Shown here: piece by piece, positions 11,205 through 14,519 of the stretch
How positions within the stretch are numbered: position 1 is the stretch's first letter
How the letters are laid out: the number at the start of each line of letters is the position of its first letter
From: Opitutus sp. GAS368
Lineage (GTDB): Bacteria > Verrucomicrobiota > Verrucomicrobiia > Opitutales > Opitutaceae
Direction: 5' to 3'
Length of the DNA stretch: 34,827 nt
Assembly (NCBI GenBank): GCA_945868215.1
Contig: CAMBLN010000008.1
Span: 1 to 34,827, forward strand
Notes under the pieces: generated by a model
What the model was told of the DNA's origin: nothing
Seen by the model: only the letters and a program-made list of their open reading frames with translations
Databases searched by the model: none
Position numbers and translations under genes: made by a program

Positions 11205-14200
11205 GTGGCCGCCTCCTCCGCCAATTCCGACACCCTGACCGGCGTTATCGAACGCATCATTTTCTTCAACGAGGAAAATCACTACACCATCGCGGAATTC
11301 CGCCCCGACTCCGCCGACGGCAAGGACGCCAAGGTCACCATCACCGGCGCCCTCCCCGGCGTTCAATGCGGCGAAACCCTCCACCTCTCCGGTTCCTGGA
11401 CGAAACACGCCCAGCACGGCGACCAGTTCAAAATCGTCTCCTTCACCTCGAAGCTCCCGTCCTCCGCCTACGGCATCCGCAAATACCTCGGCTCCGGCCT
11501 CGTCGAAGGCATCGGCAAAGCCTACGCCAACAAAATCGTCGACGCCTTCGGCACCGCCACGTTCCGCATCCTCAGCGAGGAATCCGGCAAACTCCGCGAC
11601 GTCCCCGGCATCGGCAAAAAACGCGCTGCCGCCATCAAGAAAGCCTGGGACGACCAGCGCGCCTTCCGCGAGCTCTACATCTTTCTCCAGACCTACGGCG
11701 TCACCACCGGCCAGTGCGTGAAGTTGATCAACCAATACGGCTCCGAGGCCAAACGCGTCCTCACCACCGAGCCCTACAAAGTCGCCCGCGAGATCGACGG
11801 CATCGGCTTCAAAACCGCCGACCGCATCGCCATCAATCTCGGCTACGCCAACGACGCCCCGCCCCGCCTCGACGCCGGTCTCCTCTACGCCCTCGAAACC
11901 CTCCAGGAAGAGGGCCACACCGCCATCCTCGAAGCCGCGCTCATCGACTACGCCGCCCCGCTCCTCGAAACCGAAGCCCGCTACCTCGAAGCCCGCATCA
12001 ACGCCTTGGTCGAGGCCAAACAACTCGTCCGCCACCCGCCCGCCGGCGTAACCGATCCGCTTCCCGGCTCGGCCCTCATCCAGCTCCCTGTCAACGACCG
12101 CGCCGAACAAAAAATCGCCGCCACCATCACGCGCCTCGGCAAGGTCGGCAGCGGACTCCCCCCGATCAAAACCGACGCCGCCGTCGAATGGGCCGAGCAA
12201 AAAGCCGGCTTCACCTTCGCCGACCAGCAACGCGTCGGCCTCAAAAACGCCCTCGTCTCCAAAATCTCAATACTCACCGGCGGACCAGGAACGGGCAAAG
12301 CCCAACCGCTCACCGCCCAGGTGCTCACCCCCAAAGGCTTCCGCCCGCTCGGCAGTCTCAGCGTCGGCTCACGCATCATCACCGCCGAAGGCACCGTCGC
12401 CGCGCTCAAAGGTATTTATCCGCAGGGCGAAAAAGACATCTACAGGGTCACCTTCGCAGACGGCCGCTCCACGCTCTGCTGCGATGATCACCTCTGGCGC
12501 GCCTGGACGCGCGTCTCCGTATGGAGCCCAACCAAAAAGAAAAAAATCCGCGCCCGCGACTGGCGCGTCGTCCCCCTCAGTTACCTGCGTAAACGTATCT
12601 GCGAGGATCGCACGGAAAACAACCGTATCGCCGTGCCTCTTCTGGAGGCCAGCGCTGACACCCCGCCTCAATTCTTCTTCTGCGATCCCTACGTAATCGG
12701 TGCACTCATCGGAGACGGCACGATTTCAACCTCCACCCAACTCACGACCACCGATCCGTTTATTCGTGATAAAATTCAAACCCTGATCACCCCGCTCGGC
12801 CTCACACTCAAACCCGTCACACTCCACGGTGCCGACACGATCAGCTACCGCCTCACCCACGCCAAACGAGGCCTCCCCAACACCCTCGGCGCCCATCTCC
12901 GCAGCCTCGGACTCAACGTCGGCTCCGCCAACAAATTCATCCCCGAAATTTTCTTCTCCGGCTCGCGTGACCAACGCCTTCAACTCATTCGCGGCCTCCT
13001 CGATACCGACGGCACCGTGGATAAAAACGGCGTGGTTTCTTTCAGCTCAAGCAGCCTGCGACTCGCCCGTGACTTCCAACGCCTCGCTTGGTCACTCGGC
13101 TGCATTGCCACCATCGGCGCAACCAAACACCCCACCTACACACACCGCGGTGAAAAACGCGCAGGACTTCCATCCCACACAATCATCGTTCAACACCCCG
13201 ATCCCGCCACCCTGCTCAGCCTTCCCCGCAAACTCTCCCGCTTGCAGCGTCCGAACGCCCGCAAGCGCCTCGGCCACCGCCTGCGCATCATAAGCATCGA
13301 ACCCGCCGGCCGTGCCCCCTGCGCCTGCATCTCCGTCGATTCACCCACCGGTCTCTATGTGACCGATGACTATATCGTAACGCACAACACCACGATCCTC
13401 CGCGCCCTCGTCGATATCCTGAAGGCCAAAAAAGTCCGCGTGCACCTCGCCGCCCCCACCGGACGCGCCGCGCAACGCCTCGCCGAAACCACCGGCGGCT
13501 TCGCATCCACCATCCACCGCCTCCTCAAATACGACCCGTCCAAAGGCGGCTTCGTCGCCAACGAACACCAGCCCCTCGCCACCGATTTCCTCATCGTGGA
13601 CGAAGCCTCGATGCTCGACACCCGCCTCGCCGCCGCCCTCCTGCAAGCCGTCCCGTCCCGCGCCCACCTGCTCCTCGTCGGCGACATCGACCAGCTCCCC
13701 TCCGTCGGCGCCGGCAACGTCCTCAAGGACTTGATCGCCACGGAACACGTCCCCGTCACCCGCCTCAACGTCATCTACCGCCAGAAGGGCCAGAGCCAGA
13801 TCGTCACCACCGCCCACGCCATCAACGCCGGCGAACCCGGCCTCCCGCCGTCCGTCAACGAGGTCGCCGCCGCCCAAGCCTGGTCCGACCTCACCTTCAT
13901 CGTCGCCGACTCCGCCGAAGACTGTATCCGGAAAACCATACAGCTCTGCACCGAGTTCATTCCCGCGCATTACCACTGGTTCAATCCCATCAACGACGTC
14001 CAGATCCTCGCCCCGATGCACAAGGGCGTCGCCGGTGTCAGCAACCTCAACGTCCAGCTCCAGGCCGCGCTCAACCCCCACAGCAAAGGCCTCCGCGGTC
14101 CGCACGGCGAATATCGTCCTCGCGACAAAGTCATCCAGCTGCGCAACAACTACGACAAAACCCTCTTCAACGGCGACATCGGCGTCATCACGTCCGTGGA

Positions 14201-14519
14201 CACCGAGGCCGGCACGCTCACCGCGAAATTCGACCACGACGAACACACCTTCGACCGCGGCGAATTCGGCGACCTCGCCCCCGCCTACGCCATCAGCATC
14301 CACAAATCCCAGGGCTCCGAATATCCCGTCGTCATCGTGCCGCTCCTCAAGGCGCACTTCATGATGCTCCAGCGCAACCTGCTCTACACCGCGATCACCC
14401 GCGGAAAGAAAAAAGTCTTCATCGTCGGCGAACCCGCCGCCTACGGCATGGCTGTCCGCGCCAACGAAGCCCGCGATCGCACGACCCACCTCCGCCAAAA
14501 AATCACCGCCTCCTCATAG
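11205..14519 (+). CDS. recD2: RecD2-type ATP-dependent helicase, interrupted by an intein
   Basis: RecD2 is a superfamily 1B 5'-3' DNA helicase without RecBC partners, used in DNA repair. The precursor is 1104 residues; removing the intein (12300-13388) leaves 741, a normal RecD2 length. The N-terminal part has an OB-like region and helix-hairpin-helix motifs VPGIGKKRA (about 133) and IDGIGFKTADR (about 197). Walker A is split: GGPGTGK before and TTILRAL after the intein. Then follow Walker B LIVDEASMLD, motif III LLLVGDIDQLPSVGAGN, motif V AYAISIHKSQGSEYPVVI and motif VI LLYTAITRGKKKVF. The GTG at 11205 is a best guess, with no clear ribosome site; a TTG about 13 codons upstream is the alternative. 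Helicase activity should require splicing because the P-loop is interrupted. Confidence 0.95.
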   Translation: MAASSANSDTLTGVIERIIFFNEENHYTIAEFRPDSADGKDAKVTITGALPGVQCGETLHLSGSWTKHAQHGDQFKIVSFTSKLPSSAYGIRKYLGSGLVEGIGKAYANKIVDAFGTATFRILSEESGKLRDVPGIGKKRAAAIKKAWDDQRAFRELYIFLQTYGVTTGQCVKLINQYGSEAKRVLTTEPYKVAREIDGIGFKTADRIAINLGYANDAPPRLDAGLLYALETLQEEGHTAILEAALIDYAAPLLETEARYLEARINALVEAKQLVRHPPAGVTDPLPGSALIQLPVNDRAEQKIAATITRLGKVGSGLPPIKTDAAVEWAEQKAGFTFADQQRVGLKNALVSKISILTGGPGTGKAQPLTAQVLTPKGFRPLGSLSVGSRIITAEGTVAALKGIYPQGEKDIYRVTFADGRSTLCCDDHLWRAWTRVSVWSPTKKKKIRARDWRVVPLSYLRKRICEDRTENNRIAVPLLEASADTPPQFFFCDPYVIGALIGDGTISTSTQLTTTDPFIRDKIQTLITPLGLTLKPVTLHGADTISYRLTHAKRGLPNTLGAHLRSLGLNVGSANKFIPEIFFSGSRDQRLQLIRGLLDTDGTVDKNGVVSFSSSSLRLARDFQRLAWSLGCIATIGATKHPTYTHRGEKRAGLPSHTIIVQHPDPATLLSLPRKLSRLQRPNARKRLGHRLRIISIEPAGRAPCACISVDSPTGLYVTDDYIVTHNTTILRALVDILKAKKVRVHLAAPTGRAAQRLAETTGGFASTIHRLLKYDPSKGGFVANEHQPLATDFLIVDEASMLDTRLAAALLQAVPSRAHLLLVGDIDQLPSVGAGNVLKDLIATEHVPVTRLNVIYRQKGQSQIVTTAHAINAGEPGLPPSVNEVAAAQAWSDLTFIVADSAEDCIRKTIQLCTEFIPAHYHWFNPINDVQILAPMHKGVAGVSNLNVQLQAALNPHSKGLRGPHGEYRPRDKVIQLRNNYDKTLFNGDIGVITSVDTEAGTLTAKFDHDEHTFDRGEFGDLAPAYAISIHKSQGSEYPVVIVPLLKAHFMMLQRNLLYTAITRGKKKVFIVGEPAAYGMAVRANEARDRTTHLRQKITASS
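12300..13388 (+). other. In-frame intein with class 3 signature and LAGLIDADG endonuclease domain
   Basis: The 363-residue insertion sits exactly between Lys of GPGTGK and Thr of TTILRAL. It begins with Ala (AQPLTAQVLTPKGF), not Cys or Ser, and ends VTHN with Thr as the next extein residue. The class 3 triad is visible: Trp66 two residues after the block B His64 (CDDHLW), Cys343 in block F (CISVDSP) and Thr361 before the penultimate His362. The endonuclease motifs are YVIGALIGDG (131-140) and LIRGLLDTDG (229-238), both retaining Asp. Class 3 inteins splice through the block F Cys instead of residue 1. Boundaries follow from restoring a perfect Walker A motif. Splicing activity itself is inferred. 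Confidence 0.93.

Follow-up and report, generated by a model that had tools for sequence, protein, structure and literature searches.

The window analysed here is a 34,827-nucleotide stretch of an Opitutus sp. GAS368 contig (Opitutaceae; CAMBLN010000008.1). Its forward strand carries a recD2 gene whose reading frame is interrupted by a 363-residue insert (AQPLTAQVLTP...DDYIVTHN; 12300-13388, +). The translation of the insert is free of stop codons and continues in frame on both sides, from GGPGTGK, which ends at 12299, into TTILRALV, which begins at 13389. The upstream part, or N-extein (11205-12299, +; 365 aa), contains OB_YrrC, HHH_5, HHH_RecD2 and the start of the helicase core; the C-extein (13389-14519, +; 376 aa) contains AAA_19/AAA_30, SH3_13 and UvrD_C_2. 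The GTG at 11205 is likely the start codon of the precursor, and with this start the computed lengths are 1104 aa for the precursor and 741 aa for the spliced product, the latter equal to the length predicted in a first-pass annotation of this DNA. The precursor scored 781.8 bits against the RecD2 profile TIGR01448 (cut-off 500), in two stretches that are broken at the insert. Both N-terminal RecD2 domains were found (HHH_RecD2, 110 bits; OB_YrrC, 83 bits), and the domain order is OB_YrrC, HHH_RecD2, AAA, SH3_13, UvrD_C_2. The open frame, the flanking residues and the break in the profile match bear out the first-pass placement of the insertion exactly between GPGTGK and TT, that is, inside the Walker A motif. 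RecD2 is encoded in single copy in this 99.8%-complete genome. Those neighbours of recD2 that gave family matches are ordinary chromosomal genes (HAD hydrolase, DUF2721, M16 peptidases and an aminotransferase).

The insert aligns over its full length to phage and bacterial inteins, with E values down to 2e-67. These matches, together with the uninterrupted RecD2 of relatives in the same genus, exclude a chance resemblance. Class 3 inteins are recognized by a non-nucleophilic residue 1, Trp at B:12, Cys at F:4, Thr at G:5 and, usually, Ser or Thr at +1 (PMC5222942), and the RecD2 insert carries all of these features. Residue 1 is Ala rather than a Cys, Ser or Thr nucleophile, as in all 17 RecD2 inteins. 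In block B (12489-12497, +), Trp66 (B:12) stands two residues after His64 (B:10) in the order H64-L65-W66. Block F (13320-13328, +) contains a CxC pair, Cys341 (F:2) and Cys343 (F:4, the position of the class 3 nucleophile); it is C343, and not the nearby C341, that aligns with Cys124, the catalytic block F residue in the DnaB1 intein of Mycobacterium chimaera. Block G (13380-13391, +) ends the insert with T361 (G:5), H362 and N363, followed by Thr+1 of the C-extein. Thus Ala1, W66, C343 and T361 all lie where the first-pass annotation had placed them. H64, W66, C343, T361, H362 and N363 did not vary among 205 distinct homologues, which came from genomes, plasmids and viruses; this set was picked by similarity to the query and so shows consistency rather than independent proof. 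Ala was the first residue in 176 of these homologues. Among 242 homology-selected inserts, most lie between GK and the following T or S of P-loop ATPases.

Phylogeny and the predicted fold agree with the signature residues. In a quick 150-row intein tree, with SH-aLRT support only and with a third, very long outgroup row misplaced, the RecD2 insert grouped with class 3 sequences and was separated from two outgroups of class 1 (branch 100). The AlphaFold2 model of the intein (pLDDT 93.1, pTM 0.91) has a predicted HINT fold that resembles solved class 3 inteins. The best match of its splicing domain was the class 3 DnaB intein 6bs8 (Z 19.9, 1.6 A over 123 residues), followed among class 3 DnaB structures by 6rix (Z 19.1; 1.6-1.9 A across the two), and these class 3 structures were slightly ahead of class 1 ones as matches of the splicing half. 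The whole model matches full inteins such as PI-SceI (Z 27.6). On these three lines of evidence the class 3 assignment made in the first-pass annotation is upheld, and its expected similarity to known class 3 inteins was recovered in the alignments. We consider the element to be a real and probably active class 3 intein in RecD2.

A LAGLIDADG homing endonuclease domain occupies approximately residues 122-324 of the intein (12663-13271, +). It was matched by PF14528 at 43-46 bits (cut-off 22.5), and the same residues of the model match LAGLIDADG enzymes (I-Tsp061I). No other PF14528 LAGLIDADG match was found in this genome. The first motif, YVIGALIGDGT, lies at 12690-12722 (+) and the second, LIRGLLDTDGT, at 12984-13016 (+), with catalytic-type Asp139 and Asp237, respectively. 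Both Asp residues are present in the window's intein, and its endonuclease domain looks intact. Between the window and G005, the other occupied genome of the genus, dN in the endonuclease region is 0.068 and dS is 0.56 (dN/dS about 0.12), which suggests that selection keeps the endonuclease in this pair. By contrast, Asp237 is replaced by Gly in two relatives (G037/L149 and L152). Because of this change in the second motif, these two copies have probably lost cutting and therefore homing.

Of the 252 family genomes, 17, distributed over 10 genera, have the same intein at this position of RecD2; three further weak matches in this survey are other inteins. Outside the family at least one genome is occupied, a betaproteobacterial MAG (L152, host as binned), whose RecD2 and intein are 40% and 42% identical, respectively, to those of the window. 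The RecD2 site is empty in most close relatives. Within the window's genus, nine genomes have an uninterrupted RecD2 and two are occupied; in one more the gene is truncated at the end of a contig, and one gave no match. Comparison of RecD2 proteins with and without the insert, which the first-pass annotation had proposed as a check, supports the intein reading by nine empty sites in the genus and 17 occupied genomes in the family.

RecD2 of this family also has a second intein site. In three relatives, including L317 and L111 (G051) and L316 (G556), the C-terminal helicase core is interrupted between SIHK and SQGSEYP by an intein of class 1 type (Cys1 ... His-Asn, with Ser at +1). The Walker A site is empty in G051 and outside the locus coverage in G556. 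In a Candidatus Didemnitutus MAG (L141, JAUXOH010000098.1; G486), both inteins are present in one 1634-aa RecD2 frame: a 363-aa class 3 intein in the Walker A motif and a 461-aa class 1-type intein between SIHK and SQGSE. Short, low-complexity RecD2 inserts of variable length were seen after NVLKDLIA in L113 (G419), L110 (G027) and L317 (G051); these are not inteins. Class 1-type inteins with LAGLIDADG domains were also observed in ribonucleotide reductase-like genes of relatives (L318 of G487 and L121 of G199).

The patchy distribution may be explained by movement of the element or by its loss from an occupied ancestor. The intein tree conflicts with the RecD2 tree, and the simplest reading of these sequences is that the element comes and goes, with at least one transfer between genera. 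The closest RecD2 to that of the window, at 94% identity, belongs to G010, which lacks the intein, whereas the window's intein is the sister of the one in G005. A tree in which the RecD2 proteins of the window, G005 and L139 form a group was rejected (p-AU 5.9e-5). The RecD2 proteins of L140 and L154 are sisters (100/98), whereas their inteins belong to different subclades and their union was rejected on the intein tree (p-AU 1.6e-4). The L140 intein instead groups with those of the window's genus (window and G005; 97/99), and holding these three together was rejected on the RecD2 tree (p-AU 1.4e-50). All of these p-AU values are indicative, since the tested groups were chosen after inspection of the trees. 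In addition, L151 and G030 differ by a dN of only 0.011 in RecD2, and the insert is present in L151 alone. Two observations favor the alternative that the insert was ancestral in the genus or family and is now being lost, mostly without transfer: the synonymous divergence of the inteins is equal to or higher than that of their RecD2 hosts, and the intein and RecD2 run in parallel in several clades. However, loss alone would require several inherited allele lineages to account for the sister L140 and L154 proteins with inteins of different subclades, and for the grouping of the window, G005 and L140 inteins without their RecD2 proteins. We therefore regard this explanation as credible but on the unlikely side. 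That the intein passed recently between the genomes of the window and G005 was considered and is unlikely, because dS between them is larger in the intein (0.64) than in RecD2 (0.33). No co-conversion tract was visible: around the insert, the sequence is no more identical to relatives that have the intein than to relatives with an empty site. The GC3 of the intein is below that of the host RecD2 in most copies (0.72 versus 0.86 in the window), which fits repeated transfer, although weaker codon selection is another possible cause.

The first-pass annotation had suggested that the chromosomal host may mark capture from a phage. Phages very often carry class 3 relatives (745 phage records matched). 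A phage progenitor has been proposed for class 3 inteins (PMC3196547), as has transfer from phage to host in the case of mycobacterial DnaB (PMC5050341). The low GC3 of the intein noted above points in the same direction. In the mostly viral intein tree, however, the RecD2 inteins of 10 Opitutaceae genera and the betaproteobacterial MAG form a single clade (SH-aLRT 97 with L152, 100 without), and the best phage or viral identity to the RecD2 intein is about 40-42%. The fetched loci included no viral RecD2 with the insert, and those flanking genes that have family matches are ordinary chromosomal ones. Little in these data thus favors the suggested capture, and a recent jump from a phage ATPase gene into recD2, shortly before or within the history of the genus, appears decidedly improbable. 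A deep phage origin of the RecD2 intein clade is possible.

Could the insert instead be degenerate, with splicing lost and the strain left with an inactive RecD2? Dead class 3 inteins are known, an example being Arthrobacter Arth_1007 (PMC3196547), and an open RecD2 frame is by itself no proof of splicing. However, the Arthrobacter pseudogene has no Cys F:4, whereas the window's intein has this residue and all other catalytic positions intact. Furthermore, the frame is open through the entire precursor, and dN/dS is well below 1 in both exteins and intein (window versus G005: 0.23 and 0.14). We give this explanation very little credence. We also considered a regulatory role for the CxC pair. 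Every one of the 17 distinct RecD2 inteins has C341, compared with only 35 of the 188 other relatives, and redox control has been demonstrated for mycobacterial DnaBi1, with a different cysteine pair (PMC6195587). It seems improbable, though, that the RecD2 intein is a redox-responsive switch in which a C341/C343 disulfide would keep the precursor inactive until the cell is reduced. The reading that we strongly prefer, and hold to be very probably correct, is that chromosomal recD2 harbors a class 3 intein equipped with a LAGLIDADG homing endonuclease; this intein would be spliced via the Cys343 route and would home into empty alleles.

We infer the splicing chemistry, the loss of activity before splicing and the homing; the steps of splicing are drawn from established class 3 biochemistry (PMC5222942; PMC7664689). 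Cys343, together with His64, would attack the Lys-Ala1 peptide bond, so that the N-extein moves onto the Cys343 thiol. The chain would then be transferred to the hydroxyl of Thr+1, which is the Walker A threonine. Cyclization of Asn363, aided by His362, would release the intein, and conversion of the ester to a peptide bond would yield an intact GGPGTGKTT RecD2 of 741 residues. Since the +1 residue is the Walker A threonine, unspliced RecD2 should be without ATPase activity, by analogy with P-loop inteins (PMC6195587). Because the gene is single copy, its Walker A motif is split and the threonine of this motif is the +1 nucleophile, it is fair to infer that RecD2 activity depends on splicing. 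For homing, recD2 alleles that lack the insert would be cut by the endonuclease at the codons for Walker A, and the element would thereby be copied into them.

No report of an intein in RecD or RecD2 was found in the open literature, which is not proof of novelty since the coverage of class 3 surveys was incomplete. A review table of inteins, which names RecG, DnaB and UvrD/PcrA among other entries, does not contain the term RecD. What is new is the RecD2 host and the site allele, while the type of element is already known. RecD2 thereby joins the P-loop ATPases colonized at Walker A by class 3 inteins. Within a single bacterial family, alleles of one repair helicase occur with no intein, with one or with two, and the Opitutaceae offer a natural setting, outside phages and mycobacteria, for studying the homing, loss and transfer of inteins. 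The same setting is suited to asking whether splicing controls a repair enzyme.

Several known inteins resemble this element. The mycobacterial class 3 DnaB-b inteins (Msm DnaBi1 and Mch DnaB1; 6bs8 and 6rix) share with it the non-nucleophilic residue 1, the W-C-T residues, the THN end, a P-loop insertion between Lys and Ser/Thr and a near-identical splicing fold, which is a predicted one here. However, they are mini-inteins in the replicative helicase DnaB, whereas the RecD2 intein retains its LAGLIDADG endonuclease, and the identity is about 24%. Among solved structures, the class 1 gp41-1 intein (6qaz) and its engineered WCT form, the latter without productive splicing (PMC7664689), matched the N-terminal splicing half best in single-sequence comparison. 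gp41-1 uses Cys1 as nucleophile and is without the block F Cys, while the RecD2 intein has Ala1 and Cys343. The class 3 inteins of large-genome phages (for example Xanthomonas phage LucasX, PhiPA3, and PhoH and SNF2-type hosts in viral contigs) share the length range of the RecD2 intein, its LAGLIDADG domain, the AQPL start, the VTHN end and the insertion between GK and T, but their hosts are DnaB-annotated, SNF2-type, PhoH and other phage ATPases, their identity is about 35-42% and they fall outside the RecD2 clade. A chromosomal RecD2 host had been called a less familiar setting in the first-pass annotation, which is only partly true of chromosomal hosts, since class 3 inteins occupy the same motif in mycobacterial DnaB and in many Streptomyces RecG genes. 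The Streptomyces RecG intein, of about 338 aa between GEVGSGK and T, was observed in many species (L166 was checked as RecG, and L168-L214 share its flanks). Like the RecD2 intein, it is a full intein with a LAGLIDADG domain, located at the Walker A site of a housekeeping repair helicase on the chromosome; it differs in its RecG host, in its identity of about 35% and in forming a separate clade.
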